From NCBI GenBank assembly GCA_002294185.1, contig DBFD01000015.1:1-47165 (forward strand): a stretch of DNA of 47,165 nucleotides. The letters are read 5' to 3'. The translations under genes were made by a program, and so were the position numbers. Shown piece by piece: positions 20,022-34,955 of this stretch. Numbering within the stretch: the first letter of the stretch is position 1; each line of letters opens with the position of its first letter. Source of the DNA: Paracoccus sp. UBA889. GTDB taxonomy: Bacteria; Pseudomonadota; Alphaproteobacteria; Rhodobacterales; Rhodobacteraceae. Under the pieces are notes generated by a model. It was not told where the DNA came from. It ran no database searches and saw only the letters and a list, made by a program, of their open reading frames with translations.

Positions 20022-20049
20022 TTGCAAAAGGGTGTCCTTGCGTTAGTGT
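20022..20049 (+). promoter_or_regulatory. candidate promoter of the ABC importer/hydrolase operon
   Basis: TTGCAA (20022-20027) and TAGTGT (20044-20049) are 16 bp apart. They end exactly where the perfect inverted repeat begins. The -10 match is moderate; the position before a nine-gene run and against a palindrome raises its plausibility. Confidence 0.45.
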
Positions 20050-20070
20050 GAACCAATTCATGATTGGTTC
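20050..20070. promoter_or_regulatory. perfect inverted repeat, probable repressor operator
   Basis: Arms GAACCAAT and ATTGGTTC are exact complements with a 5-base centre (TCATG). The element occupies the start region just downstream of the candidate -10. It ends one base before the AGGA ribosome site of the first gene. A bound repressor here would block transcription start. The GntR/FCD gene at the end of the operon is the obvious candidate ligand-responsive regulator; the pairing is inference. Confidence 0.6.
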
Positions 20071-20078
20071 AGGATTTC

Positions 20079-21080
20079 ATGACACCCGACCGGATTGCCG
20101 CCGACAGCCACGCGCTTCTTCACCTTCAGCAGGCCACCTTGCGCCTGCCACGGCACCAGGCCGCGCTGCTGGACGATGTGTCGCTGTCCGTTTCGCGGGG
20201 TGAAACCCTGTGCATCGTCGGCGAATCGGGCTGCGGCAAAAGCCTGACCTCGCTGGCGATGATGGGGTTGCTTTCGCCGAACCTGCGCGACGGGCTGTCG
20301 GGACGCATGGTCTTCGAGGGGGACGAGATCGCCTTGACCGACCGCAAGGCGCTGGCCGGGCTGCGGGGTCGGCGGATCGGCATGATCTTTCAGGAACCGA
20401 TGTCCAGCCTCAACCCCGCCCATCGCATCGGCGACCAGATCGCGGAAGCATGGCGGCGGCACAATCCCGGCGACGGGCGCGATCGGGCGCTGGCCATGCT
20501 GCGCCGTGTGGGCATCCCGGCCGCGGAACGCCGGATGCGCGACTATCCGCATCAGATGTCGGGCGGGATGCGGCAGCGGGTGATGATCGCGATGGCGCTG
20601 GTCAACAATCCCGACCTGCTGATCGCGGACGAACCGACCACGGCGCTGGATGTGACCATTCAGGCCCAGATCCTGGATCTGATCGCGGAATTGCAGGCGG
20701 GCGGCGAGATGGGCACGATCCTGATCACGCATGATCTGGGCGTGGTCGCCGAGGTTGCGACCAGCGTCGCTGTCATGTATGCGGGACGCATCGTCGAGAC
20801 CGGTCCGGCCGAGGCGATCTTTCGCGATCCGCAACATCCCTATACGATCGGTCTGATGTCCTCGGTCCCCGCGCTGCGCGGTCCGCGCCGCAGGCTGGCC
20901 ACGGTGCCCGGTATCGTGCCCTCGATCGAAACCATGCCCCGGGGCTGCCGCTTTTCGACCCGCTGTCCCTTCGCGCGGCCAATCTGCGCAACCACGCCGG
21001 ATCTGACAGAGGTCGCACCCGACCATCGCACGGCCTGCCATTTCGCGCCGCTGGAAACCCGGCTGGAGGGCGCCGCATGA
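20079..21080 (+). CDS. peptide/nickel-type ABC importer ATPase (DppD/OppD family)
   Basis: 333-residue ATP-binding subunit. Walker A GESGCGKS, the Q-loop [10 protein letters not shown] (a peptide-importer signature), signature MSGGMRQR and Walker B LLIADEP are all intact. The C-terminal oligopeptide-transporter extension has the cysteine pattern [14 protein letters not shown]...C, which can bind an iron-sulfur cluster in this family. A TTG at 20064 would add five residues but lies inside the inverted repeat. The ATG at 20079 has AGGA four bases upstream. First gene of the operon; it overlaps the next by ATGA. Confidence 0.93.
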
Positions 21081-22174
21081 CCCGTCCCATCGTCGAGGTC
21101 GAGGGCCTGACCAAACGGTTCGCAGTCGGTGGTGGGCTATTGCAGAAACCGCGTCCGCTGCATGCCGTGGACGGCGTCGACCTGCACGTGAACGAGGGCC
21201 AGACCTTTGCCATCGTCGGCGAATCGGGCTGTGGAAAATCGACCCTGGCGCGTCTTCTGATGCGACTGCTGGAACCCTCGGAGGGCCGGATCCGCGTGGC
21301 TGGCCGCGACATTTCCGACCTCGCCGGCGCCGATCTGCGCGCCCTGCGTCGTGATGTGCAGTTCATCTTTCAGGATCCGTTCTCATCGCTCAATCCGCGC
21401 CTTTCGGTGGGGCGTCTCGTGGGCGAGCCGCTGGAGGCGCACCGACCCGAGATGAGCAGCCGTGACCGCCGGTCCGAGGTCGCGCGCCTCCTGGCGCAGG
21501 TCGGCCTGCGCCCCGAGCATATGGATCGCTATCCGCATGAATTCAGCGGTGGCCAGCGCCAGCGCATCGGCATCGCGCGGGCGCTGGCTTCGGGACCGAA
21601 AGTCCTGATCGGGGACGAGCCCGTCAGTGCGCTGGATGTCAGCGTTCAGGCGCAGGTGGTGAACCTTCTGGGGGACCTGCGCGACCGGCTGGGGCTGACG
21701 CTGATCGTCATCGCCCATGATCTTGCGGTGATCCGGCAGATGAGCGATCGCGTCGGTGTCATGTATCTGGGCCGCATCGTCGAAACCGGCCCGACCGACA
21801 CGATCTTCGAAGCCCCGCGACATCCCTATACGCGCGCGCTGCTGGCGGCGATCCCCGGACCCGATGGCGGCCATGGCGGGCCGGGCCTGTCGGGCGAGAC
21901 GCCAAGCCCGCTGGACCCGCCCTCGGGCTGCCATTTCCGCACCCGCTGCCCTCATGCGCAAAGCCGCTGCGCCGAGATCCGGCCGGCGCTGGAAGAGACC
22001 GGACAGGGCAGTCAGGTGGCCTGTCTGCGCTGGCGCGAGATTGCCGGCGATGGACAGGCCGCGCCACCCCGGTCGGCCCGCAGCGACGGCGCCGAGATCC
22101 GCTTTCGTCTCTATCGCGAGGCTTTGGCGCAAAAGGAAAACACCAAGAAAACCCAACAGGAGACAAAGACATGA
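21077..22174 (+). CDS. peptide/nickel-type ABC importer ATPase (DppF/OppF family)
   Basis: 365-residue second ATPase, forming a heterodimer with the previous gene's product. Walker [19 protein letters not shown], signature FSGGQRQR and Walker B VLIGDEP are intact. The C-terminal cysteines (CHFRTRCPHAQSRC...C) match the same extension. A 40-residue polar tail rich in Lys/Thr follows. It is ATGA-coupled at both ends. The substrate class cannot be told from the ATPase. Confidence 0.93.
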   Translation: MTRPIVEVEGLTKRFAVGGGLLQKPRPLHAVDGVDLHVNEGQTFAIVGESGCGKSTLARLLMRLLEPSEGRIRVAGRDISDLAGADLRALRRDVQFIFQDPFSSLNPRLSVGRLVGEPLEAHRPEMSSRDRRSEVARLLAQVGLRPEHMDRYPHEFSGGQRQRIGIARALASGPKVLIGDEPVSALDVSVQAQVVNLLGDLRDRLGLTLIVIAHDLAVIRQMSDRVGVMYLGRIVETGPTDTIFEAPRHPYTRALLAAIPGPDGGHGGPGLSGETPSPLDPPSGCHFRTRCPHAQSRCAEIRPALEETGQGSQVACLRWREIAGDGQAAPPRSARSDGAEIRFRLYREALAQKENTKKTQQETKT

Positions 22175-23673
22175 ACATTCGCAGAACCCTGCTGCTGGCG
22201 GCCCTGCTTGGCACCAGCGCGATGGCCGCGCAGGCCCAGACCCTGCGCATCGGGCTGGAAAGCGATCCTGATGCGCTGGATCCGGACAAGAGCCGCACCT
22301 TCGTCGGGCGGATCGTGTTCACCGCCCTGTGCGACAAGCTGATCGACGTGACGCCGGATCTGAAACTGGTGCCGCAACTGGCCACGGAATGGAGCGTCAG
22401 CGAGGATGGCAAGACCGTGGACATGACCCTGCGCGAAGGCGTCGTCTTCCATGATGGCACGCCCTTCGACGGCGAGGCGGTCAAGGCGAATATCGAACGC
22501 TCGCAAACGCTGGAGGACAGCGTGCGCAAATCCGAAGTCAGTTCGATCACCGAGGTCGAGGTGGTCGATCCGACCCATGTCAGGCTGCGCTTGTCGGCCC
22601 CCGACGCGCCGCTTCTGGCGCAGCTGGCCGACCGGTCGGGGATGATGATGTCGCCGGCGGCGTTCGATGACGATTTCAGCGCCCAGCCAGTCTGTTCGGG
22701 GCCGTTCAAGTTCAAGAACCGCGTCGCGCAGGACAAGATCGAGCTTGAGAAATTCGCCGATTACTGGAACGCCGACCAGATCAAGGTCGATGCCGTAAGC
22801 TACCTGCCGATCCCGGATTCGACCGTGCGGCTGGCCAACCTGCAATCGGGCGATCTGGACCTGATCAACCGACTCGCCGCCACCGATGTCGAAGCGGTCA
22901 AGAGCGCCGGGAACCTGAAATACGAACGCGCCGACGGGCTGGGCTATCAGGGGATCACCTTCAACACCAACAACGGCGCCAAGGCCGACAACCCCTTCGG
23001 GCAGGATCCGAAGCTGCGTCAGGCCCTGTCGCTGGCCATCGACCGCAACGCCATCAACCAGGTGGTCTTTGCCGGCCTGAATGCGCCGGCCAGCCAGTTC
23101 GTGCCGGCCGTCAGCCCGTTCTTCGATCCGGCCTATCCGGTCCCCGAACGCGATGTCGAGAAGGCCAAGGCGCTGCTGGCAGAGGCCGGTATCGAGGGCG
23201 GAATCGATCTGGAACTGCAATTTCCCAACCGTCCCGAAAGCCAGCAGGTCGTGCAGATGATTCAGGCCATGGCGGCTGAGGCGGGCATCAACATCACCCT
23301 GACCGCCAAGGAATTCGCCACCATGCTGGCCGATCAGGCGGCGGGCGATTTTCAGGCGTCCCAGGTGGGCTGGTCCGGTCGGATCGACCCGGACGGAAAC
23401 ATCTACGGCTTCGTCACCACCGGCGGCGGCTTCAATGACGGCAAGTATTCGAACCCCGAGATCGACCGTATCCTGGGCGAGGCCCGCGCCGTCAGCGACG
23501 AGGCCGCCCGCAAGGATCTGTACAAGCAGGCCAACCAGATCCTGCAGACGGATCTGCCGTTGTTCTATCTCTATAACGAGGCGTGGCTCTATGGCGTCTC
23601 GGACAAGGTCGCGGGCTTCACGCCCAGCCCGGACGGGATGATCCGGCTGGAAGGCGTCAGCCTGTCCGAATGA
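22171..23673 (+). CDS. ABC importer substrate-binding protein (family 5, peptide/nickel type)
   Basis: 500-residue periplasmic binding protein with a signal peptide (MNIRRTLLLAALLGTSAMAAQA). LRIGLESDPDALDP opens the mature part. The family-5 block around residues 70-100 (LATEWSVSEDGKTVDMTLREGVVFHDGTPF) is clear. The C-terminal half, from about residue 280, contains LRQALSLAIDRNAI, also standard. It belongs to the DppA/GsiB group; the ligand is unknown. A strong stem-loop follows the gene, fitting the usual excess of binding protein over the membrane subunits. Confidence 0.92.
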   Translation: MNIRRTLLLAALLGTSAMAAQAQTLRIGLESDPDALDPDKSRTFVGRIVFTALCDKLIDVTPDLKLVPQLATEWSVSEDGKTVDMTLREGVVFHDGTPFDGEAVKANIERSQTLEDSVRKSEVSSITEVEVVDPTHVRLRLSAPDAPLLAQLADRSGMMMSPAAFDDDFSAQPVCSGPFKFKNRVAQDKIELEKFADYWNADQIKVDAVSYLPIPDSTVRLANLQSGDLDLINRLAATDVEAVKSAGNLKYERADGLGYQGITFNTNNGAKADNPFGQDPKLRQALSLAIDRNAINQVVFAGLNAPASQFVPAVSPFFDPAYPVPERDVEKAKALLAEAGIEGGIDLELQFPNRPESQQVVQMIQAMAAEAGINITLTAKEFATMLADQAAGDFQASQVGWSGRIDPDGNIYGFVTTGGGFNDGKYSNPEIDRILGEARAVSDEAARKDLYKQANQILQTDLPLFYLYNEAWLYGVSDKVAGFTPSPDGMIRLEGVSLSE

Positions 23674-23678
23674 GGCCC

Positions 23679-23708
23679 GGCCGGGGCGGCGTCGCCGCCG
23701 CCCCGGCC
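23679..23708 (+). other. intercistronic stem-loop after the binding-protein gene
   Basis: A perfect 13-bp GC-only stem (23679-23691 with 23696-23708) has a TCGC loop. It begins 6 bp after the binding-protein stop and ends 20 bp before the first permease ATG. Such a structure would protect the upstream mRNA from 3' exonucleases and lower downstream expression. CCTTTCC follows, too weak for a full terminator. Confidence 0.75.
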
Positions 23709-23727
23709 CTTTCCGAAAGGCGCCGCC

Positions 23728-24672
23728 ATGCTGACCTATCTTGCCCGCCGCGTGATGATCGCGATCCCGACGCTGATCCTGATCTCGATTTTCGTCTTCG
23801 CGTTGCAGAAGATGCTGCCCGGCGATCCGGTGCTGGCGCTGGCCGGCGATGACCGCGACCCCGAGACGCTGGCGCGGCTGCGTGAATTGTATCACCTGAA
23901 CGATCCGATCTGGATGCAATATCTGCAATGGGTGAAGAACGCCCTTCAGGGCGATCTGGGGCGTTCGATCCGGACCGGGCTGCCGGTCAGCGACATGATC
24001 GCCCAGAAGCTGCCGGTGACGATCCAGCTTGCGGTGATGTCGATGATCTTCGCCGCCGCGATCGGGATCCCGGCGGGGATCATCTCGGCGGTGAAGAAGG
24101 GCACGATCACCGATTACGCAGCCAATGTGATCGCGTTGTCGGGCCTGTCGATCCCCAATTTCTGGCTGGGGATCATGCTGATCCTGCTGGTTTCGGTGAA
24201 ATGGCGGCTGCTGCCGGCCTCGGGCTATGTGCCGCTGAGCGAGGATCCGGTGCAGTCGATCCGCACCATGCTGATGCCTGCCTTCGTGCTGGGCACCGCG
24301 CTGGCGGCGTCGCTGATGCGGCACACGCGATCGGCGATGCTGGGGGTGTTGAGGCAGGACTACGTCCGCACCGCCCGCGCCAAGGGTCTGGCCGAACGCA
24401 GGGTGATCATGCACCACGCCTTCCGAAACGCCCTGACGCCGGTCGTCACGCTGATGGCGCTGCTGTTTGGCGAACTCATCGCGGGGGCTGTGCTGACCGA
24501 ACAGATCTTCACCATCCCGGGCTTCGGCAAGATGGTGGTCGATGCCGTCTTCAACCGCGATTACGCGGTGGTGCAGGCGGTGGTTCTTGTCACCGCGCTG
24601 GGCTTTATCCTGATGAATCTTCTGGCCGACCTGGCCTATGTGGCACTGAACCCGCGGCTGAGGACCGGCTGA
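23728..24672 (+). CDS. ABC importer permease (DppB/GsiC family)
   Basis: 314-residue permease with six predicted membrane helices. The N-terminal MLTYLARRVMIAIPTLILISIFVFAL and the EAA-type loop LRQDYVRTARAKGLAERRVIMHHAFRNAL (about residues 205-235) are standard for the peptide importer family. It pairs with the next gene, whose start overlaps its stop (TGATG). The ATG follows GAAAGG. Confidence 0.93.
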   Translation: MLTYLARRVMIAIPTLILISIFVFALQKMLPGDPVLALAGDDRDPETLARLRELYHLNDPIWMQYLQWVKNALQGDLGRSIRTGLPVSDMIAQKLPVTIQLAVMSMIFAAAIGIPAGIISAVKKGTITDYAANVIALSGLSIPNFWLGIMLILLVSVKWRLLPASGYVPLSEDPVQSIRTMLMPAFVLGTALAASLMRHTRSAMLGVLRQDYVRTARAKGLAERRVIMHHAFRNALTPVVTLMALLFGELIAGAVLTEQIFTIPGFGKMVVDAVFNRDYAVVQAVVLVTALGFILMNLLADLAYVALNPRLRTG

Positions 24673-25544
24673 TGAACGAGACCGCCGCGACCGATCCCGT
24701 CCTGTCGAAACGCCCGCAAAGCCGCGTCTGGCGCAAGCTGCGCGGCCATCGCAGCGCCATGTTCGGCGCGGTGCTTGTGGGAATGTTCGTCCTGCTGGCG
24801 CTGGCGGCGCCGATCCTGCCCGTGCCCGATCCCGCCGCCGTCGACTGGACCGCGATCCGGCAACCGCCCTCGGCCGCGCACTGGCTGGGCACGGACGAGT
24901 TGGGCCGCGATCAGTTGTCGCGGATGATCTGGGGCGCGCGCGCCTCGTTGATGGCGGGGGTGGTATCCGTCGGCATTGCCATCGTGATCGGCGTGCCTCT
25001 GGGGATCATTGCCGGGTATTTCGGCGGCTGGACCGATGCCGTGATCTCGCGCTGCACCGAGGCGCTGCTGGCGATCCCGTTCCTGATTCTCGCCATCGCG
25101 CTGGCGGCGTTCCTGGGGCCCTCGCTGACCAATGCGATGATCGCCATCGGGATCGCGGCCACGCCGGTCTTCATCCGACTGACGCGAGGCCAGGCAATCA
25201 ACGTGGCATCCGAGGATTACGTCGAAAGCGCCCATGCCATCGGCCTGTCCACGGGCGTCATCCTGCGCCGCTATATCTTTCCCAATGTCCTGCCGCCGAT
25301 CCTGGTGCAAGCCACGCTGACCGTCGCCAGCGCCATCATCGCCGAGGCATCGCTGTCCTTTCTGGGGCTGGGCCAGCAGCCGCCCGCGCCAAGCTGGGGG
25401 GCAATGCTGAACGTGGCCAAGGGCTTCATGACGCAGGCGCCCTGGATGGCGCTGTGGCCCGGCATCGCGATCTTTCTGGTGGTGCTGGGATTTAACCTTC
25501 TGGGCGACGGTCTGCGCGACGCGCTGGACCCGCGCGAGGATTGA
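24672..25544 (+). CDS. ABC importer permease (DppC/GsiD family)
   Basis: 290-residue permease. The N-terminal OppC-type segment (RKLRGHRSAMFGAVLVGMFVLLALAAPIL), HWLGTDELGRDQLSRMIWGAR, and the EAA loop near INVASEDYVESAHAIGLS identify it. The frame is open far upstream inside the previous gene, but the family start and the TGATG overlap fix the ATG at 24672. It completes a five-component importer. The hydrolase gene starts 16 bp later. Confidence 0.93.
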   Translation: MNETAATDPVLSKRPQSRVWRKLRGHRSAMFGAVLVGMFVLLALAAPILPVPDPAAVDWTAIRQPPSAAHWLGTDELGRDQLSRMIWGARASLMAGVVSVGIAIVIGVPLGIIAGYFGGWTDAVISRCTEALLAIPFLILAIALAAFLGPSLTNAMIAIGIAATPVFIRLTRGQAINVASEDYVESAHAIGLSTGVILRRYIFPNVLPPILVQATLTVASAIIAEASLSFLGLGQQPPAPSWGAMLNVAKGFMTQAPWMALWPGIAIFLVVLGFNLLGDGLRDALDPRED

Positions 25545-25559
25545 TCGACAGGAACAGGC

Positions 25560-27350
25560 ATGAACAATTTCACCACACGACCCGATATCCGCGGCACCTT
25601 CGGCACCGTCACCTCGACCCATTGGCTGGCCTCGGCGACCGGGATGGGCATTCTGGAACGCGGCGGCAATGCCTTTGACGCGGCGGTGGCGACGGCGCTG
25701 GTCCTGCAGGTGGTCGAGCCGCATCTGAACGGACCGGCCGGCGATCTGCCCGCCATCGTCCATCTGGCCGAGACCGGCGAAACCCGCGTGCTCTGTGCGC
25801 AGGGCGTGGCGCCGAAGGCCGCCACGATGGACCATTACCGCAGCCTGTTCGGCGACGGACTGATCCCCGGATCGGGGCTGCTGGCGACGGTGGTGCCGGG
25901 CGCCTTCGATGGCTGGATGCTGATGTTGCGCGATCACGGCAGCATGGAGGTGTCGGAGGTTCTGGCACCGGCCATCGCCTATGCGCGGGACGGCCATCCG
26001 GTGCTGCCGCGCGTGGCCGATACCATTGCCGGTCTGGCCGATTTCTTCCGCGCGGAATGGCCCAGCAGCGCCGCCACCTGGTTGCCCGGCGATGCCGCGC
26101 CGCAGCCCTGGTCGCTGTTTCGCAATCCCGATCTTGCCGCCGCCTATCAGCGGATCGCGGACGAGGCCAGGGGCGACACCCGCGCGGCCCGGATCGACGC
26201 GGCCCGCAGCATCTGGTCACGGGGTTTCGTGGCCGACGCGATCGGCGATTATCTGGCCGGGGCAAGCGTGATGGATGTCTCGGGAAGCGCGCATTCCGGC
26301 GTGCTGTCGCGGCAGGATCTGGCGGAATGGAAGGCGACATGGGAAACGACGCTGTCGCTGGATTATCATGGCTGGACCATCCACAAGACCCATAGCTGGT
26401 CACAGGGGCCGGTGCTGTTGCAAGCGCTTCAGATCCTCAAGCATTTCGATCTGGCGGCGCTGGATCCGCTGGGCGCGGATTTCGTTCATGTCGTGGCCGA
26501 GGCGATGAAGCTGGCCTATGCCGACCGCGAGGCCTATTACGGCGATCCCGATTTCTTCGAAATTCCCATGGCGACGCTGCTGTCCGAGGATTATGCTGCG
26601 GAACGCGCGGCTCTGATCGGCGAGAAAGCCAGCCTGGAACAGCGCCCTGGCCGCCTGCCGGGTCTGGAGCATCTGGCCGACGACGCCATCGCCCGCGCCG
26701 CGCATGATTTCGATGCCGCGCGCGGGGTCAGCGCCGGCGAGCCGACGATGGCGCATCTGACCGAACGGCGCGGGGATACCGTTCACCTGGACGTGATCGA
26801 CCGCTGGGGAAACATGGTCAGCGCCACGCCCTCGGGCGGATGGCTGCAATCCAGCCCGGTGATCCCGGGCCTGGGTTTTCCGCTGAACAGCCGCGCCCAG
26901 ATGTTCTGGCTGCGCGATGGCTTGCCGAGCTCGCTGCGGCCGGGGGCGCGGCCGCGCACGACGCTGACGCCGTCGATGGCGGAAAAGGGCGGCACCCGGA
27001 TCGCCTTTGGCACGCCCGGCGGCGACCAGCAGGATCAGTGGCAACTGATCTGGTTCCTGCGCTATGTCCATCACGGGCTGTCGATGCAGCAGGGAATGGA
27101 CGCGCCGCTGTTTCACATCATGCATTTCCAGTCCAGCTTCTATCCGCGCGAGGCCAAGCCCGGTGAATTGATGGTCGAGCCGAATTTCGGCGAGACGGTG
27201 ATCGAGTCTCTGCGCGCGCGGGGCCATATCGTTACCGTGGCCGAACCCTGGAGCATCGGCCGCCTGACGGCCGCGAGGCGCGAACCCGACGGGATGCTGA
27301 CCGCCGCCGCCACGCCCCGGCTGATGCAGGCCTATGCGGTGGGCCGCTGA
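25560..27350 (+). CDS. gamma-glutamyltransferase-family Ntn hydrolase, divergent active site
   Basis: 596-residue member of the GGT superfamily without a signal peptide, so probably cytoplasmic. Aligned by eye with E. coli GGT, the catalytic threonine is Thr407 in GDTVHLDVIDRWGN and the oxyanion GG is kept in GTPGGDQQ. Several substrate residues are not kept. The Arg that binds the gamma-glutamyl alpha-carboxylate (FREMAPAKAT in E. coli) is Gln81 in AQGVAPKAAT. The YTLN motif after the nucleophile is replaced by TPSGG, and SSMSP by TTLTP. A gamma-glutamyl substrate is therefore doubtful. Another amide is possible, as for the oxamate amidohydrolase HpxW of the same superfamily. Confidence 0.85.
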   Translation: MNNFTTRPDIRGTFGTVTSTHWLASATGMGILERGGNAFDAAVATALVLQVVEPHLNGPAGDLPAIVHLAETGETRVLCAQGVAPKAATMDHYRSLFGDGLIPGSGLLATVVPGAFDGWMLMLRDHGSMEVSEVLAPAIAYARDGHPVLPRVADTIAGLADFFRAEWPSSAATWLPGDAAPQPWSLFRNPDLAAAYQRIADEARGDTRAARIDAARSIWSRGFVADAIGDYLAGASVMDVSGSAHSGVLSRQDLAEWKATWETTLSLDYHGWTIHKTHSWSQGPVLLQALQILKHFDLAALDPLGADFVHVVAEAMKLAYADREAYYGDPDFFEIPMATLLSEDYAAERAALIGEKASLEQRPGRLPGLEHLADDAIARAAHDFDAARGVSAGEPTMAHLTERRGDTVHLDVIDRWGNMVSATPSGGWLQSSPVIPGLGFPLNSRAQMFWLRDGLPSSLRPGARPRTTLTPSMAEKGGTRIAFGTPGGDQQDQWQLIWFLRYVHHGLSMQQGMDAPLFHIMHFQSSFYPREAKPGELMVEPNFGETVIESLRARGHIVTVAEPWSIGRLTAARREPDGMLTAAATPRLMQAYAVGR

Positions 27351-28099
27351 TGACCTGGTCCCTGATCGCCCGCGATCCCGCGTCCGGCGCGCTTGGTATC
27401 GCCGTCGCCAGTCGCTTTTTCGCCTGCGGATCGCTGGTGCCGCATGTCGGTCCGGCAGCCGCCTTCGCCACGCAGGCCTTCGTCAACCCGGTCTGGGGCA
27501 CCGAGGGGCTGCGCCGCCTGGGCGCGGGCGAGGCGGCCGATGCCCTCCTGGCCGATCTGGTTGCGCGCGATGCGGGGGCGGCGCAGCGGCAGGCCCATGC
27601 GCTGGATGCGCGGGGCGGCGGCGCGGCCCATACCGGCGCGGAATGCGTGCCCTGGGCGGGACATGTGACGGGTCAGGGCCTTTCGGTCGCGGGCAACATG
27701 CTGGAGGGGCCGCAGGTGATCGAGGACACGGCGCGCGTCTTCGCAGACCGCGCCGACCTGGACTTTCCCGACCGGATGCTGGCCGCGATGCAGGCGGGCG
27801 AGGATGCGGGCGGCGACCGTCGCGGGCGGCAGGCGGCCGGGCTGCGCATCCATCGCGGTCAGGCCCATCCCTGGCTGGATCTGCGGGCCGATGATCATGC
27901 CGATCCGCTGGCCGAACTGCGCCGATTGCTGGCGGTGGCGCGCGAACGCTATCTGATGGTCGCCGAGATCATGCCGACCGCGGAAAATTTCAGCGGCGCC
28001 CCGGATCGCAGCGATACCGACCGCCGCATCGCAGAGGCGGAACGGGCGCGGATCGCGACCGGCCGCGCCAGCGCCTCGTTCGCGACGACGAAAGGCTAG
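27350..28099 (+). CDS. DUF1028 protein, possible second Ntn-type hydrolase
   Basis: 249 residues. MTWSLIARDPASGALGIAVASRFFACGSLVPHVGPAAAFATQ, split over residues 1-42, and GNMLEGPQVIEDTA at about residues 114-127 are the DUF1028 signatures. From memory the family has an Ntn-hydrolase-like fold but no established reaction. Residue 2 is threonine, which would become N-terminal if Met is removed and so could act as nucleophile; this is inference. The ATG overlaps the previous stop. The last 50 residues are a charged helix. Confidence 0.85.
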   Translation: MTWSLIARDPASGALGIAVASRFFACGSLVPHVGPAAAFATQAFVNPVWGTEGLRRLGAGEAADALLADLVARDAGAAQRQAHALDARGGGAAHTGAECVPWAGHVTGQGLSVAGNMLEGPQVIEDTARVFADRADLDFPDRMLAAMQAGEDAGGDRRGRQAAGLRIHRGQAHPWLDLRADDHADPLAELRRLLAVARERYLMVAEIMPTAENFSGAPDRSDTDRRIAEAERARIATGRASASFATTKG

Positions 28100-28103
28100 C
28101 GAG

Positions 28104-28934
28104 ATGGAGGCAATCACCACAGCCGCGCTGCTGGAACTGGCCGCCGTCGCCGTGGGCGCGGGCATCGGCGGCGGCATTCTTGCCGGCTTGCTGGGGGTCG
28201 GCGGCGGGATCGTCATCGTTCCCGCGCTCTATTTCGCGCTGAACCTGACCGGCATGGATCCGGGCCTGACGATGAAGGTCGCGGTCGGCACCTCGCTGGC
28301 GACCATCGTGTTCACCTCGCTGGCCTCGGGTCTGGGTCATCACCGCAAGGGCGCCATCGACACCGCGCTGCTGAAACTATGGGCGCCGTCGATCCTGGTG
28401 GGTGTGGTCATCGGCAGTGTTCTGGGCGGCTATGTCTCGGGCAAGGTGCTGATCGCGGTCTTTGCCGTGGTGGCACTGGCGGTTTCGGCCGACATGATCC
28501 TGCGCAAGGGGCGCGCCGATCCCGAACCCAAGGGCTTTTCCAGACCCGTCTGGGCGGCCTTCGGGGTCTTCGCCGGCGGGGTCAGCGCGATGATGGGGAT
28601 CGGCGGCGGCACGATCGGCGTGCCGCTGCTGAATTTCCTCGGCTACGACATCCGCCGCGCGGTCGGCACCTCGGCCGCGATCGGTTTCCTGATCGGGCTG
28701 CCCGGCGCGGTGATCTATGCGCTGACCGGGCTGGGCCAACAGGGGCTGCCGCCGTTTTCGCTGGGCTATGTAAACCTGCTGGCTGCGATCGTGATCATTC
28801 CGCTGACCACCAGTTTCTCGCAACTGGGCGTCAGGCTGGCCCACTCGATCCCCCGGCGGGCACTGCGCCTTGCCTTCGGCGCGTTCCTGCTGCTGACCGC
28901 GATCCGCATGTTCATCGACCTCTTTTCGGGCTAG
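28104..28934 (+). CDS. sulfite exporter TauE/SafE family permease
   Basis: 276-residue membrane protein with about eight helices. GGGILAGLLGVGGGIVIVPALYF (about residues 23-45) and its repeat GVSAMMGIGGGTIGVPLLNFLGYD in the second half are the two TSUP-family signatures. Characterised members move sulfite, sulfoacetate and other small sulfur-containing or organic anions, generally outwards. Its place after importer and hydrolase genes suggests removal of an anionic product. The direction and substrate are inferred. Confidence 0.9.
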   Translation: MEAITTAALLELAAVAVGAGIGGGILAGLLGVGGGIVIVPALYFALNLTGMDPGLTMKVAVGTSLATIVFTSLASGLGHHRKGAIDTALLKLWAPSILVGVVIGSVLGGYVSGKVLIAVFAVVALAVSADMILRKGRADPEPKGFSRPVWAAFGVFAGGVSAMMGIGGGTIGVPLLNFLGYDIRRAVGTSAAIGFLIGLPGAVIYALTGLGQQGLPPFSLGYVNLLAAIVIIPLTTSFSQLGVRLAHSIPRRALRLAFGAFLLLTAIRMFIDLFSG

Positions 28935-28937
28935 GAC

Positions 28938-29612
28938 ATGGAGCCGCCGACCGACGACCCGGCAGCGGTCATCGCCGCCCTTGCGCCGATCCTGACCGAG
29001 GCCGCCAAGACCGGCGGCCGGCTGCCGCCCGAACGTCGGCTGGCCGAGATTCTGGGCATCCCCCGTCGCCGGCTGCGTCTGGCGCTGGACGAATTGCAGC
29101 GGCGCGGGGCGGTCTTTCGCCGCCACGGGCAGGGCACCTTCGTCACCCCGCCGCCCCGCCCCGATGCCGGACGCCACCGCCTGCTGGCCGGCAGGCTGAG
29201 CCTTGATCAGCTGATGGATGTCCGTCGCCAGATCGAGCCGCGGCTGGCCGAACTGGCGGCGACCCGTGCCGGGGCCGGGGATCTGGCGCAGCTGGAAATC
29301 CTGATGCGGCAATCGCGCGAAGCCGTGCAGCCGCAGGAATACGACCTGGCCGACGAGGTGTTTCACTACCGAATCGCCGAACTGGCGGGCAATGCGCTGT
29401 TTCTGGAAGTCTATGATCTGATCCGGCAGATGCGGCGCGAGGCCGGCTGGCGCGAACGCAGAGAGGAAACCAACGTGCCCGGTTTCCTGAGGCTTCTGGG
29501 CCAGCAGCATCAGCATATCTTCGACGCCATCGCCGCTGGCGACGCAGCGGGCGCGGGTCAGGCGCAGCGGGACCATCTCGATTTCGTCGCCAGCGCCATC
29601 GACAGCGATTGA
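28938..29612 (+). CDS. GntR family regulator with FCD domain
   Basis: 224-residue transcription factor. A winged helix-turn-helix lies at about residues 10-75 (LPPERRLAEILGIPRRRLRLALDELQRRGAVFRRHGQGTFV). An all-helical FCD ligand domain lies at about 85-218 with likely metal ligands in DEVFHYRIAEL, QQHQHIFDAI and QRDHLDF. FCD regulators usually sense small carboxylic acids. It is the last gene of the importer/hydrolase operon (3 bp after the exporter gene) and probably controls it through the inverted repeat at 20050-20070. Confidence 0.9.
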   Translation: MEPPTDDPAAVIAALAPILTEAAKTGGRLPPERRLAEILGIPRRRLRLALDELQRRGAVFRRHGQGTFVTPPPRPDAGRHRLLAGRLSLDQLMDVRRQIEPRLAELAATRAGAGDLAQLEILMRQSREAVQPQEYDLADEVFHYRIAELAGNALFLEVYDLIRQMRREAGWRERREETNVPGFLRLLGQQHQHIFDAIAAGDAAGAGQAQRDHLDFVASAIDSD

Positions 29613-29654: not shown

Positions 29655-30242
29655 ATGCGACCCGATTTCGATGATTGTTTTCCGCTGCGCGTCGCGCGCG
29701 TCCATGAGGTTTGCGGGGCCGGCGCGACGGCCTTTGCCGCCATCGCCGCCGCCCCGGCGCAAGGTCCGGTCCTGTGGCTGCGCGAGGCATGGCGCGGCGA
29801 CATGCTCAATCCGCTGGGACTTGCGCCGTTCATCGATCCGTCGCGTCTGCTGGTGGCGCGCAGCGCGAACCAGACCGACAGCCTTGCGGCCGCCGAAGAG
29901 GCCTTGCGTGACGGCGCCATTCCCTTCGTGGTGGCCCAGATCACCCGCCCGCTGAACCTGCGCGAAGGGCGGCGACTGCAACTGGCTGCCGGGGCGGGGG
30001 GCACGACCGGCCTGTGCATCATCCCCGAAAACATGGGCAGCAATGCCGCCGAGACGCGCTGGCGGGCGGTCCCGATCCTGGATGACGGGCGGGGGGACTC
30101 GACTCTGATGCAATGGGAAATTATCAAGAACAAATCAGGAACAATCGGGGCCTGGCATGTTCGATGGGATCCGGAAGCGCGTGGTCTGCATGTGGTTTCC
30201 CCGGCTGGCGAGCGACCGGGCCCTGCGGGCACGCCCGGTTGA
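29655..30242 (+). CDS. imuA: ImuA-like protein of the mutagenesis cassette
   Basis: 195-residue divergent RecA/SulA-like partner of the ImuB-DnaE2 translesion machinery. RVARVHEVCGAGATAFAAI (about residues 12-30) and the tail RWRAVPILDDG...GAWHVRWDPEARGLHV are typical of ImuA. The Walker motif is degraded, as in the family. A TTG at 29637 is possible, but the ATG at 29655 fits the candidate promoter. The last 86 bases overlap imuB in another frame, and the codons for TLMQWEIIKNKSGT coincide with an SOS promoter. Confidence 0.8.
   Translation: MRPDFDDCFPLRVARVHEVCGAGATAFAAIAAAPAQGPVLWLREAWRGDMLNPLGLAPFIDPSRLLVARSANQTDSLAAAEEALRDGAIPFVVAQITRPLNLREGRRLQLAAGAGGTTGLCIIPENMGSNAAETRWRAVPILDDGRGDSTLMQWEIIKNKSGTIGAWHVRWDPEARGLHVVSPAGERPGPAGTPG
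30099..30142 (+). promoter_or_regulatory. SOS promoter and LexA box for imuB-dnaE2, inside imuA
   Basis: TCGACT (30099-30104) and TATCAA (30122-30127) are 17 bp apart. GAAC-AAATCAG-GAAC (30128-30142) follows at once, an exact match to the alphaproteobacterial LexA box GAAC-N7-GAAC. A repressor there would cover the transcription start; the imuB ATG lies 14 bp after the box. The local sequence is conspicuously AT-rich for this genome although it is also coding for ImuA. Confidence 0.75.
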
Positions 30243-31656
30243 GGCGCCCTTCGCGCTGATCGTGAGCCGGAACAATGCCGAGCGTCTGGCCTGCGTGAAC
30301 GTCGCGGCCGAAAGCCGTGGTCTGTGGCCCGGCATGAACCTTGCCGATGCCCGTGCCTTCTGTCCCGATCTGGTCACCCGGACCGGCGATCCCCAGGGCG
30401 ATCGGGCATTCCTGGTCGCCCTGCGCCGCTGGGCCACGCGCTATTGCCCCTGGGTCGGGCTGGACGGGACTGACGGATTGGTTCTGGACATCACCGGCGC
30501 GGCGCATCTGTGGGGCGGCGAGGCGGCGATGCTGGCCGACATGCGCGCCCGCGCCGCCCGGGCCGGGCTGACGCTGCGCCTCGGCGCGGGCGACACGCGC
30601 GGCGCGGCATGGGCGCTGGCCCGGCATGGCGAGGGGATCGCGCCCGCGGGCCGGCCGCTTGCGGCCCTTGCCCCGCTGCCGGTCGCCGGGCTGCGGCTGG
30701 ATGCGGATATGGTGATGGCGCTGCAACGTCTTGGCCTGCGCCGTATCGGCGATCTGGCGGGGACGGCGCGCGCGCCCCTGGCCCGCCGCTTTGGCCCCGG
30801 CCTGCTGATGCGGCTGGATCAGGCGATGGGCGAGGCAGCCGAGCCGATCACCCCCGAAGCCGATCCCGTTCGCTATGCCCTGCGCCTGAACCTGCCCGAT
30901 CCGGTCGGCCTTCTGGACGACGTGATGGCGGCTGTCGGTCAACTTCTGGGTCCGCTCTGCGACCGGCTGAAGGCACAAGAGACCGGCGCGCGGCGGTTGA
31001 TCCTGACCCTGCGCCGCGTTGATCAGGTCAGCCGTCAGGTGGAATTGCGCCTTGCCGCCCCGATGCGCGAGACGGCCCGAATCCTGCCCCTGTTCGAACG
31101 CGGCATCGCCGAGGTCGATGCCGGTTTCGGCATCGATCAGATCCGGCTGGAGGCGACCCTGGTCCAGCCGCTGCCGATCCAGCAGATCGGGTCTGCGACC
31201 GCCACCGGCAGTCATGACAGCCAAGACGGCCAAGACAGGCTGGACGACCTGATGACCCGGATCGGAACCCGGATCGGGCTGGAAAACCTGCTGCGTTTCC
31301 TGCCCGCCGACAGCCACATTCCCGAACGCGGCTTCGTAGCCGCCGCAGCCGCCCACAGCCGCGCCGAGACCGGCTGGTCCGCGCCGCGCCCGCGCCCGGT
31401 GATCCTGTTTCCGCCCGAACCCGTTGCCGCTTCGGGCGCGCGTCCCCCGGCCCGGTTTCGCTGGCGGCGGATGATCTTTGCCACGGCCCGCGCCACCGGC
31501 CCGGAACGGATCGCGCCGGAATGGTGGCTGGATGATCCCGCCTGGCGGTCGGGGCTGCGCGATTACTGGCGGCTTGAAACCCGGCAGGGCAGGCGGCTGT
31601 GGCTGTTCCACACGCCGCAGGATCCCGGCTGGTTCGTCCAGGGGGAATTCGCATGA
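30157..31656 (+). CDS. imuB: ImuB, Y-family polymerase-like protein without catalytic residues
   Basis: 499 residues. KRVVCMWFPRLASDRALR at the N-terminus and FALIVSRNNAERLACVNVAAESRGLWPGMNLADARA are the ImuB signatures. The Y-family fold is kept, but the acidic metal ligands expected near the N-terminus are absent (CMWFPRL instead of a DxD-type motif), as is usual for ImuB. ImuB bridges the beta clamp, ImuA and DnaE2. The ATG lies 14 bp after the LexA box without a strong ribosome site. The stop overlaps dnaE2 by ATGA. Confidence 0.92.
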   Translation: MFDGIRKRVVCMWFPRLASDRALRARPVEAPFALIVSRNNAERLACVNVAAESRGLWPGMNLADARAFCPDLVTRTGDPQGDRAFLVALRRWATRYCPWVGLDGTDGLVLDITGAAHLWGGEAAMLADMRARAARAGLTLRLGAGDTRGAAWALARHGEGIAPAGRPLAALAPLPVAGLRLDADMVMALQRLGLRRIGDLAGTARAPLARRFGPGLLMRLDQAMGEAAEPITPEADPVRYALRLNLPDPVGLLDDVMAAVGQLLGPLCDRLKAQETGARRLILTLRRVDQVSRQVELRLAAPMRETARILPLFERGIAEVDAGFGIDQIRLEATLVQPLPIQQIGSATATGSHDSQDGQDRLDDLMTRIGTRIGLENLLRFLPADSHIPERGFVAAAAAHSRAETGWSAPRPRPVILFPPEPVAASGARPPARFRWRRMIFATARATGPERIAPEWWLDDPAWRSGLRDYWRLETRQGRRLWLFHTPQDPGWFVQGEFA

Positions 31657-34600
31657 GCTATGCCGAACTGGCCGTGACCACGAATTTCACCTTCCTGACC
31701 GGCGCCTCGCATCCCGAGGAACTGGTCGCCCGCGCCGCCGAACTGGGCCTTGCCGCCATCGCCATCACCGACCGCAATTCCGTCGCCGGCGTGGTGCGCG
31801 CCCATACCGCGCTGAAAGAAATGCGGCGCGAACTGGGCAAGGCCACGATCCGCTCGACCGTGCAGGTCGACACCTGCTCGCATCAGCCGGTGGGGGAATG
31901 GAAAACCGTCGGGGCCGCGGACCGGCTGTTGCCGAAACTGATCGTCGGCAGCCGTCTGGTGGCCGAGGATTGTCCGGTCGAATGGCTGGCCCTGCCGACC
32001 GACCGACCCGCATGGCACCGGCTGTCGCGGCTGCTGAGCCGTGGCAAGCGGCGGGCCGCCAAGGGCGAATGCCGGCTGATGCTGAACGATCTGCTGACCG
32101 GCTGCCGGGGCTTGATCCTGATCGCGCTGCCGCCAACCGAGCCGCACCGGGCGATCGCGCCGGTGCAGGCGATGGCCCGGCGCTATCCGGGGCGGGTCTT
32201 TCTGGGCGCCGCGCCGCGTTACGACGGCAGCGATCAGGCCTGGTTCGATACCTGCGCGGCGCTGGCCCACAGGGTGGCGGCCCCGATGGTCGCGGTGGGT
32301 GACGTGCTGATGCACCGCGCCGCCCGGCGCCGTCTGGCCGATGTGTTGACCTGTCTGCGCGAGGGGATCAGCATCGACCGCATCGGCAGCCGTGCCCTGC
32401 CCAATGCCGAGCGCCGCCTGAAATCCCCCGCCGAGATGGACCGTCTCTTTGCCCGTCACCCGGCCGCGATCCGTCGCACGACCCAGATCGCCTCGCTGTG
32501 CTGCTTCGATCTCGACCAGCTCGGCTACGATTATCCCGACGAGGTTGCAGCAGACGAGGCGCCTCAGGACAGGCTGGTCCGGCTGACCCGCGAGGGTCTG
32601 GCGCGGCGCTATCCGGGTGGCGCGCCGCAGCGGGTCCATGATCTGATCGACAAGGAACTGGCCCTGGTGGAGGAACTGAAATACGCCGCCTATTTCCTGA
32701 CCGTCCACGACATCGTGGCCGAGGCACGCCGACGCGGCATCCTGTGCCAGGGGCGCGGCTCGGCCGCCAATTCGATCCTGTGCTACCTGCTGGGCATCAC
32801 CGATGTCAGCCCCGATCTGATCGGCATGGTCTTCGAACGCTTCATCTCGCGCCATCGCGGCGAGCCGCCCGATATCGACGTGGATTTCGAACATGAGCGC
32901 CGCGAAGAGATGATCCAGTGGATCTACGGGAAATATGGCCGCCATCGCGCGGGCCTTTGCGCCACGGTGATCCATTTCCGTTCGCGCGCGGCGATCCGCG
33001 AGGTGGGCAAGGTGATGGGATTGTCCGGGGACGTGACCGCCGCGCTGTCGGGCCAGATCTGGGGGATGTCGAACGCGGGCGCGGATCCCGAACGGATGCG
33101 CGAACTGGGTCTTGATCCGCGGGATCGCCGCCTGTCGCAGACGATCCGCCTGATCCGCGAGATCATCGGTTTTCCGCGCCATCTGTCCCAGCATGTCGGC
33201 GGTTTCGTCATCACCCGGGGGCGGCTGGACGAATTGTGTCCGGTCGAGAATGCGGCGATGGAGGACCGCACCGTCATCGGCTGGGACAAGGACGATATCG
33301 ACGCGCTGAACATCCTGAAGGTCGATGTCCTGTCGCTGGGGATGCTGACCTGCATCCGCAAGAGCTTTGACCTTCTGGAAAGCCACGAAGGCATCCGTCA
33401 CAGCCTCGGTTCGGTGCCGCAGGGGGACGAGCCGACCTACCGGATGCTGCAACAGGCCAATGCGGTGGGCGTCTTTCAGGTCGAAAGCCGGGCGCAGATG
33501 AATTTCCTGCCGCGGATGAAGCCGCGTGAATTCTACGACCTGGTGATCGAGGTCGCCATCGTCCGCCCCGGCCCGATCCAGGGCGGCATGGTCAAACCCT
33601 ATATCCGCCGCCGTCAGGGGCTGGAGAAAGCCGAACCTTTCGGCCCGGCCTTGGCCGAGGTGACGCGGCGGACCCTGGGGGTGCCCCTGTTTCAGGAACA
33701 GGCCATGCAGATCGCCATCGTCGGTGCGGGCTATAGCGCCGAAGAGGCCGACCGCCTGCGCCGCTCGCTGGCCTCGTTCCGGCGCATGGGCACGATCGGC
33801 GAGCATCGCGAACGCTTTGTGCAGGGGATGCTGTCGAACGGCTATGACCGTGGGGTGGCAGAACAATGTTTCTCGCAGATCGAGGGGTTTGCCGATTACG
33901 GCTTTCCCGAAAGCCACGCGGCGGCCTTCGCGATGCTGACCTATGTCTCGTCATGGCTGAAATGCCATCATCCGGCGATCTTTGCCTGCGCGTTGCTGAA
34001 TTCGCAGCCGATGGGGTTTTACGCCCCCGCCCAGATCGTCCGGGACGCGCGCGAGAACGGGGTCGAGATCCGCCCCGTCTGCGTCAATTCCAGCCTCTGG
34101 GACAACCGGCTGGAACGGCGCGCCGATGGCGCATGGGCACTGCGGCTGGGATTTCGCCAGATCCGGGGCTTTCGCGACGGCGATGCCCGGCGGATCCAAG
34201 AATGTCGCGGCAACGGCTATACCGATGTCGAAAGCCTGTGGCTGCGCGCCGGAATTCCGCCCGCCGTGCTGGAACGGCTGGCCGAGGCCGACGCCTTCGC
34301 CGCCATCGGCCTGACCCGGCGTGACGCGCTGTGGCAGGTCCGTGCGATCCGGGCACCCGCGCCGCTGCCGCTGTTTTCCGATCCGCTGGATGGCGAGGCC
34401 ACTTGCGAGCCGCAGGTTGCGCTGCCCGCCATGCATCTGGGCGAGGAGGTGGTCGAGGATTACGTCGCCCTGCGCCTGTCGCTGCGCGCCCATCCGATGG
34501 AATTGCTGCGCCCGCGCCTGCCGGGCCTGATCCCGAACCGTGATCTGCCACGGGTTCCGCCGCGCCGGGTTTCGGTCTGCGGCCTCGTCATCACCCGCCA

Positions 34601-34955
34601 GCGCCCCGGCACGGCATCGGGCGTGATCTTCCTGACGCTGGAGGACGAGACCGGGGTGGCCAATGTCGTCGTCTGGCGGCGCATCCATGACCGTTTCCGC
34701 CGCGCGGTGATGGGCGGGCGGCTGTTGCGAGTCACCGGGCGGCTGGAACGCGAAGGCATCGTGGTGCATCTGATCGCCGATCGGATCGAGGATCTGTCCC
34801 ATCGCCTTGCCGAACTGGGCCATCCGCTTGAGGGTGCGGTCGGCACGACCTCGCCCCGCGCGGACATCGCGCCGCGCCCGAAACATCAACCCGCCCATGC
34901 CGGCCATCCCCGCGATCAGGCGAAACGACTTTTCCCCAGCCGGGATTTTCATTGA
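31653..34955 (+). CDS. dnaE2: error-prone DNA polymerase III alpha subunit DnaE2
   Basis: 1100 residues, the DnaE2 length; it is a non-replicative C-family polymerase that does translesion synthesis with ImuA and ImuB. An N-terminal PHP domain (MSYAELAVTTNFTFLTGASHPEEL) is followed by the palm with QGRGSAANSILCYLLGIT and PDIDVDFEHERREE, which carry catalytic aspartates. FQEQAMQIAI and an OB fold come after residue 950. The frame is open 18 codons upstream, but the family start and the ATGA overlap with imuB fix 31653. It is convergent with the GGDEF gene; no terminator was seen in the 95-bp gap. Confidence 0.97.
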   Translation: MSYAELAVTTNFTFLTGASHPEELVARAAELGLAAIAITDRNSVAGVVRAHTALKEMRRELGKATIRSTVQVDTCSHQPVGEWKTVGAADRLLPKLIVGSRLVAEDCPVEWLALPTDRPAWHRLSRLLSRGKRRAAKGECRLMLNDLLTGCRGLILIALPPTEPHRAIAPVQAMARRYPGRVFLGAAPRYDGSDQAWFDTCAALAHRVAAPMVAVGDVLMHRAARRRLADVLTCLREGISIDRIGSRALPNAERRLKSPAEMDRLFARHPAAIRRTTQIASLCCFDLDQLGYDYPDEVAADEAPQDRLVRLTREGLARRYPGGAPQRVHDLIDKELALVEELKYAAYFLTVHDIVAEARRRGILCQGRGSAANSILCYLLGITDVSPDLIGMVFERFISRHRGEPPDIDVDFEHERREEMIQWIYGKYGRHRAGLCATVIHFRSRAAIREVGKVMGLSGDVTAALSGQIWGMSNAGADPERMRELGLDPRDRRLSQTIRLIREIIGFPRHLSQHVGGFVITRGRLDELCPVENAAMEDRTVIGWDKDDIDALNILKVDVLSLGMLTCIRKSFDLLESHEGIRHSLGSVPQGDEPTYRMLQQANAVGVFQVESRAQMNFLPRMKPREFYDLVIEVAIVRPGPIQGGMVKPYIRRRQGLEKAEPFGPALAEVTRRTLGVPLFQEQAMQIAIVGAGYSAEEADRLRRSLASFRRMGTIGEHRERFVQGMLSNGYDRGVAEQCFSQIEGFADYGFPESHAAAFAMLTYVSSWLKCHHPAIFACALLNSQPMGFYAPAQIVRDARENGVEIRPVCVNSSLWDNRLERRADGAWALRLGFRQIRGFRDGDARRIQECRGNGYTDVESLWLRAGIPPAVLERLAEADAFAAIGLTRRDALWQVRAIRAPAPLPLFSDPLDGEATCEPQVALPAMHLGEEVVEDYVALRLSLRAHPMELLRPRLPGLIPNRDLPRVPPRRVSVCGLVITRQRPGTASGVIFLTLEDETGVANVVVWRRIHDRFRRAVMGGRLLRVTGRLEREGIVVHLIADRIEDLSHRLAELGHPLEGAVGTTSPRADIAPRPKHQPAHAGHPRDQAKRLFPSRDFH

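Follow-up and report, generated by a model that had tools for sequence, protein, structure and literature searches.

What a tightly packed run of nine genes does for its host, when it encodes a complete ATP-binding cassette (ABC) importer, a gamma-glutamyltransferase (GGT)-like enzyme, a DUF1028 protein, a TauE/SafE (TSUP) carrier and a GntR/FCD regulator, is the question raised by this locus of Paracoccus sp. UBA889. The stretch of DNA that was analysed (the window) comprises 47,165 nucleotides of contig DBFD01000015.1, and the nine genes lie at 20079-29612, all on the plus strand, each encoding a protein that scored above the curated Pfam cut-off for its expected domain. An earlier note had described these nine genes in this order, tightly coupled and with a single 54-bp gap carrying a stem-loop, and coordinates, Pfam matches and folding agree with it: the junctions from the first importer ATPase to the GntR gene measure, in order, -4, -4, 54, -1, 15, -1, 4 and 3 bp. 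Of the extent that it gave, 20022-29612, the end stands and the start is slightly early, as the first gene starts at ATG 20079 (its longest form would start at TTG 20064). The operon is read here as a substrate-inducible import-cleave-export module built around an LmbA2991-type enzyme, a reading to which a probability of roughly 0.65 is given; the module recurs and is probably co-regulated, and the class of mechanism is fairly likely.

The central enzyme (25560-27350) was assigned to the LmbA2991-type N-terminal nucleophile (Ntn) hydrolases of the GGT superfamily using Pfam, structure-database matches, residue comparison and a fold search. The closest solved structures are 6j3a and 6j3i (LmbA2991 of Streptomyces lincolnensis; E 1.3e-180 over residues 4-596), and the top three Foldseek matches of the model (mean predicted local distance difference test score, pLDDT, 83) are of the LmbA2991 type, with 50-52% identity in the fold alignment. 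The self-cleavage motif is shared, D406-T407 of the window protein being followed by VHLDVIDRW and T421 of LmbA2991 by CHLDVVDRW, and Asp406 and Thr407 are each found in at least 97% of 152 sequences. By alignment with D420/T421 of LmbA2991, the codons for Asp406 and Thr407 (26775-26780) are predicted to specify the self-cleavage site and the nucleophile. LmbA2991 and Ant6 are reported to self-cleave before a Thr and to cleave a pyrroline intermediate hydrolytically at a C-C bond, and were presented as the first Ntn hydrolases reported to break such a bond (PMC5519988). In the same report, oxalic acid was detected as a co-product of the Ant6 reaction, an oxalyl-Thr intermediate was proposed for both enzymes, the pyrroline activity of LmbA2991 was about 37% of that of Ant6, and LmbA2991 itself was said to have an unclear intrinsic function (Zhong et al. 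2017, PMC5519988).

The score of the window enzyme against TIGR00066, the model for canonical gamma-glutamyltransferase, was 250.7 bits, below the cut-off of 357.85. In comparison with the GGT of E. coli K-12, R114 is replaced by Q81, D433 by M448 and S462/S463 by T467/T468; in the E. coli enzyme this Arg, this Asp and the Ser pair bind the gamma-glutamyl group. The changes R114>Q, N411>G, Q430>R, D433>M, S462>T and S463>T are present in all 10 aligned family members (the window protein and nine relatives), all of which retain the Thr nucleophile and the GG pair. Because the residues that bind the gamma-glutamyl group are replaced, the protein is probably not a glutathione enzyme, and the view of the earlier note that an altered pocket argues against plain glutathione use is borne out by the loss of R114, D433 and the Ser pair alike. 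Two other GGT-family genes are present in the genome, and the copy on contig C14 retains R137, D466 and the SS pair. By eye and on a crude hydropathy measure, the C14 protein has a signal peptide-like start and the window enzyme has none; the latter is probably cytoplasmic, a location put no more firmly because the DUF1028 protein scored about as high on this measure as the C14 protein. The third GGT-superfamily gene of the genome (G000:C59, L003) is nearest to 2nlz, a structure titled cephalosporin acylase, and is without the gamma-glutamyl residues.

For comparison across genomes, loci around relatives of the enzyme were fetched from the 80 best matches (60-81% identity to the GGT-like protein), a plasmid collection (11), the class as a whole (60) and the genus (34), yielding 182 loci with an assignable gene run after identical proteins were merged, the window included; with 80 best matches in it, this sample is biased towards the operon type of the window. 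The class sample represents 60 of 80 non-window places, those left out being mostly weaker, and the genus sample 34 of 35 (32 after merging identical proteins). Genes were called by our own scripts, which set some starts wrongly (4 of 57 DUF1028 calls begin elsewhere), and the importer was scored as present if the co-directional run also contained a related solute-binding protein (SBP; at least 40% identity). The exact nine-gene order was found in 14 of the 182 loci, window included, and the run that holds the enzyme also holds the ABC importer in 105, GntR in 93, DUF1028 in 64 and TSUP in 30 of them. The order is shuffled among relatives, which include other Alphaproteobacteria, with GntR first, GGT first or the ATPases last, and because it varies between loci the genes are argued to be functionally linked and not merely co-inherited by shared ancestry. 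The fewest changes on the tree were 20 for the ABC importer, 28 for DUF1028, 12 for TSUP and 19 for GntR, with gains and losses indistinguishable. Counting the own genome, 76 of 385 genomes of the class and 36 of 125 of the genus encode an enzyme of this type (E up to 1e-120), and in a Nonomuraea (actinobacterial) record (L085) a single run holds GntR, SBP, permeases, ATPases, GGT and a TauE protein. The earlier note had proposed a co-occurrence check across genomes; this comparison finds the genes together beyond their own genome, so that its refuting case of a set confined to this genome did not arise, and the conserved unit that the note described, with parts fitting import, cytoplasmic cleavage and export, recurs both in order and reshuffled.

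Co-regulation is suggested by a perfect palindrome, AACCAAT-TCATG-ATTGGTT, at 20051-20069, nine bases 5' of the first ATG, which is the predicted site of the GntR/FCD regulator (28938-29612; PF00392 and PF07729 both met). With up to 2 mismatches allowed and the whole fetched locus counted, AACCAAT-N5-ATTGGTT tracks the regulator (70 of 93 loci with GntR vs 6 of 89 without) and the importer (72 of 105 ABC loci vs 4 of 77 others), with the arms nearly fixed and the five-base spacer variable across loci; 30 shuffled-arm controls gave a mean of 1.4 and a maximum of 6 of the 105 ABC loci. The four palindrome-bearing loci without an ABC importer are GGT-TSUP-GntR units with the site 5' of GGT, and where the site is present GGT and TSUP are predicted to form one regulatory unit even without importer and DUF1028. 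Among 310-bp windows taken 5' of the first core gene, a match with up to 2 mismatches was present in 57 of 107 loci, compared with 8 of 535 windows placed at random, some of them possibly overlapping a true site. The weight of the operator rests on its perfect match and on these cross-locus counts, because at up to 3 mismatches a match was found in 37 of 100 window shuffles and is not rare by itself. In the own genome the site of the operon is the only one at up to 1 mismatch, and within the genus perfect sites occur in 10 of 125 genomes, all of them enzyme carriers, with 9 of the 10 sites at the operon; a regulon extending beyond the operon was rejected on these two counts. Because of the position of the operator, the GntR/FCD protein would act as a repressor rather than an activator. 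The palindrome is absent from the description in the earlier note. An odd perfect site (L255, G444 contig C23) lies off the operon, between a GntR/FCD-like gene, whose product is 36% identical to that of the window over 157 residues, and a divergent ABC SBP gene, whose product did not match the sulfonate-like SBP found at L231. At L219 two separate stretches match the GntR gene, and neither DUF1028 nor TSUP gave a match there.

The importer is encoded by two ATPase genes, DppD/OppD-like (20079-21080) and DppF/OppF-like (21077-22174), both assigned by Pfam and NCBIfam, followed by genes assigned by Pfam for an SBP of the SBP_bac_5 family with a signal-peptide-like start (22171-23673), permease B (23728-24672) and permease C (24672-25544). 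No NCBIfam match listed for the components reaches its cut-off (for three of the five, the best 25 matches), the best among those listed for the SBP being GsiB at 206.9 bits vs a cut-off of 594. The SBP carries the motif WSGR-x-DPD-x-N, the Arg of which (Arg404, codon 23380-23382) is found in 105 of 105 operon SBPs and, by alignment, occupies the column of a DppA Asp that holds the peptide amino group. The residue facing it is Asp in DppA chain 8z1y and Arg in 8z1z, presumably a mutant pair, Ala in 5u4o, Ser in 1uqw and Glu in 6hlx; in a remote and thus approximate alignment, Arg is found at this position in 0 of 10 other family-5 SBPs of the genome, which carry A, Q, S, F, D, D, D, N, L and Q instead. 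Because Arg404 replaces the DppA Asp, the ligand probably has an acidic or blocked group at the position of the peptide amine, and it is probably not an ordinary dipeptide. The peptide-type importer of the earlier note is therefore retained as to its component families and qualified as to its key Asp. The 54-bp gap between SBP and permease B (23674-23727) folds at -38.9 kcal/mol (z -2.6; matched by 1 of 200 dinucleotide shuffles), and such hairpin gaps are common in relatives: by mononucleotide shuffles, z < -2 was obtained for 59 of 93 SBP-permease gaps vs 20 of 124 other co-directional gaps, the controls being a random half of such gaps of 35-110 nt. At L074, L083 and other loci, additional ABC genes lie nearby.

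Downstream of the enzyme, the DUF1028 protein (27350-28099; PF06267, 214.6 bits vs a cut-off of 26.2) looks like a second Ntn-type protein. Its N-terminus reads M-T-W-S; 54 of 57 gene calls have both Thr2 and Ser4, with alignment gaps at these positions in the remaining three, and both residues stand in all rows of a 22-row alignment, for which relatives were picked for an MT start. The model (pLDDT 89.7) matched 2imh, a DUF1028 structure, first in Foldseek, followed by proteasome subunits, Anbu, HslV and MTH1020 at modest scores (template modelling score about 0.4; first E 1.7e-4); removal of the Met would expose Thr2 as a candidate Ntn nucleophile. Where the earlier note foresaw one or two Ntn-type hydrolases, two Ntn-type proteins are supported. 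Pfam names DUF1028 as a family of unknown function; a single literature search for it found no papers, and neither did searches for the gene combination. An amidase-family gene directly follows GGT at L044, L063, L064, L078 and L081 (Pfam was run on the L044 copy, whose contig begins near the operon), five loci without a DUF1028 match, and this arrangement suggests an amide-cleaving step; the same amidase cluster occurs elsewhere in seven further loci, some of them with DUF1028.

The carrier (28104-28934; PF01925, 170.9 bits vs a cut-off of 32.6) has about 8 hydrophobic segments and may export an anionic product. The export step gains some support because other carriers stand in the run where the TauE type of the window is absent: a chromate-type transporter after DUF1028 at L226, SBF-like proteins at L086 and L236, and at L085 a TauE-family protein outside the cluster of the window protein. 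In 8 importer-less loci, a MATE-family protein (Pfam on one copy) comes directly after the enzyme.

In the model that we favour, the altered peptide-type importer would take up an acidic small molecule without a free peptide amino group. Thr407 of the cytoplasmic, self-cleaving LmbA2991-type hydrolase would then attack a carbonyl and free an acyl acid by C-N or C-C cleavage, DUF1028 would act through Thr2 as a second Ntn-type amidase on the remainder or a related amide, and the TauE-type carrier would remove an anionic product, with the GntR/FCD protein sitting on AACCAAT-N5-ATTGGTT and repressing the operon until a pathway acid releases it. The most likely class of substrate, we infer, is an N-acylated or cyclic acidic amino-acid derivative.

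Several observations weigh against this model. The predicted structure of the enzyme has pLDDT below 50 at residues 385-405 and 428-431, next to the active site. No operator match was found at 33 of 105 ABC loci or at 23 of 93 GntR loci, and 26 of 36 genus enzyme carriers are without a perfect site. The export step is optional, because the TSUP type of the window has no match in 152 of 182 loci. In the class-wide sample taken by itself (n=60), the ABC importer accompanies the enzyme in 11 loci, DUF1028 in 10, GntR in 5 and TSUP in 1, and because most of these loci are without the operon, the LmbA2991-type enzyme may have other roles outside it. Clues to the substrate conflict, pointing variously to 5-oxoprolinase, DgcN-DgcA, carbamoylase-like proteins and a sulfonate-like SBP, and no DgcN was found in the own genome.

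These clues hint weakly, through the neighbours found in relatives, at acylated or cyclic glutamate-like amides, and the alternative that survives best, at something like one chance in four in our estimate, is that the operon degrades a compound of the D-glutamyl, N-acyl- or N-carbamoyl-glutamate, 5-oxoproline or hydantoin type and feeds glutamate to the cell. PxpB-PxpC-PxpA-type genes lie directly 5' of GGT-TSUP in each of two genomes (L005, Paracoccus sp. M683, of which L224 is the same locus, and L223), in runs with no importer, DUF1028 or GntR match; at L005, PxpA scored above a subfamily cut-off and PxpC short of its equivalog cut-off. DgcN- and DgcA-type genes, which belong to a D-glutamate pathway (PMC10845958, PMC12363236), are both found no more than 5 kb from the enzyme at 13 of the 60 class-sample loci (L131, L132, L137, L138, L139, L141, L155, L160, L167, L169, L175, L184 and L185), whose enzymes are down to 50% identical to each other; the equivalog cut-offs were passed by one representative of each. 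At 8 loci a gene of the N-formylglutamate amidohydrolase family lies upstream at a distance of 2.5-7.5 kb, L094 has amidohydrolases together with a hydantoinase/carbamoylase-family protein, and at L231, in the genus, the enzyme is accompanied by a creatinase/M24-type protein, an NMT1-type SBP and an Asp/Glu/hydantoin racemase-type protein. However, the ABC operon is missing from all 13 DgcN-DgcA loci, the own genome is again without DgcN, scores stayed below the HutG and ErtE equivalog cut-offs, and the pocket is without the residues that would hold a gamma-glutamyl group.

Somewhat less probable is a substrate with an oxalyl (alpha-keto acid) group, from which the enzyme would form an oxalyl-Thr intermediate and TauE would export oxalate or oxamate. 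The window enzyme is of the same type as LmbA2991, and the C-C cleavage by Ant6 and LmbA2991, the oxalic acid of the Ant6 reaction and the proposed oxalyl-Thr all fit such chemistry, as does HpxW, an oxamate amidohydrolase (PMC12625717) and more distant fold relative, which shares the GGT superfamily and an Ntn-type fold; its match is far weaker, at E 1.6e-24 (large chain) vs 1.3e-180 for LmbA2991. Against it stand the unassigned native substrate of LmbA2991 and its lesser pyrroline activity, and no oxalate-pathway gene was seen among annotated neighbours in a search that was not systematic. The same precedent makes the 'amide or gamma-linked compound' of the earlier note too narrow a substrate, the nearest characterised relative being an enzyme that breaks a C-C bond. 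A bolder proposal, which we regard as improbable though worth stating, is a widespread catabolic rather than antibiotic pathway of bacteria in which the LmbA2991-type enzyme cleaves an acidic metabolite, once imported, at a C-C bond, with DUF1028 as partner Ntn amidase, TauE as acid exporter and the GntR/FCD protein at its operator; if true, a C-C-cleaving catabolic pathway would be the native role of LmbA2991-type enzymes.

Degradation of an N-acyl sulfonate such as N-acyltaurine, with export of sulfonate or sulfite, is a distinctly unlikely alternative, modelled on the N-acetyltaurine (naa) genes of Ruegeria pomeroyi, which comprise a five-gene ABC importer, an amidohydrolase and a regulator (PMC4334477). 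The SBP at L231 is weakly like sulfonate-binding proteins, below cut-off, and the handling of oxyanions by TauE and chromate-type carriers would suit such a product; on the other side, the annotated neighbours included no gene for taurine or sulfonate catabolism, again in a search that was not systematic, and the enzyme of the known system is one called NaaS. The naa system has a LysR regulator, and the available part of its description mentions no GGT-like enzyme or DUF1028 (PMC4334477), so that, compared by description, the present operon seems distinct in its enzyme, its regulator and DUF1028. Ordinary salvage of glutathione or gamma-glutamyl peptides, suggested by the GGT superfamily and by GsiB as best listed match of the SBP, was rejected as very improbable, with all six pocket positions (R114, N411, Q430, D433, S462 and S463) changed, a separate canonical GGT elsewhere in the genome, and LmbA and Ant6 described, in the available part of one report, as without gamma-glutamyl activity (PMC6085292).

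The proposed import-cleave-export module resembles known systems in part. With LmbA2991 the enzyme shares the match over residues 4-596, the D-T motif, the start of the small subunit and the fold; unlike LmbA and Ant6, which serve antibiotic biosynthesis, it is encoded in an uptake operon. With Gsi and Dpp importers the operon shares component families; it differs from them in the Arg that takes the place of the DppA Asp and in having no listed NCBIfam match at cut-off. The presence of an LmbA2991-type enzyme and DUF1028 in one recurring uptake operon gives both families a testable natural role, and the predicted operator and the atypical binding protein make both open questions experimentally approachable.

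Upstream of the operon in the window lie glycyl-tRNA synthetase genes (minus strand) and a peptidoglycan-binding-domain gene (plus strand); a co-directional gene stops 180 bp 5' of the first operon gene, and a sigma-70 promoter scan found no promoter. The six clustered flanking genes of the window are each without counterpart among 152 loci, a set in which L063 and L089 have no assignable operon, and two flanking proteins at L220 and L228 gave no Pfam match. At L095 (3715-10788), a relative of the enzyme follows an ABC importer of a different type and a 472-residue protein with a weak match to the biotin-ligase N-terminal domain. On the 3' side of the operon, a 201-residue reading frame opens about 24 bp after GntR, and further downstream (30157-34955) domain matches identify an IMS-family gene overlapping a DNA polymerase III alpha-family gene, a pair that we take to resemble an ImuB-DnaE2 mutagenesis cassette.

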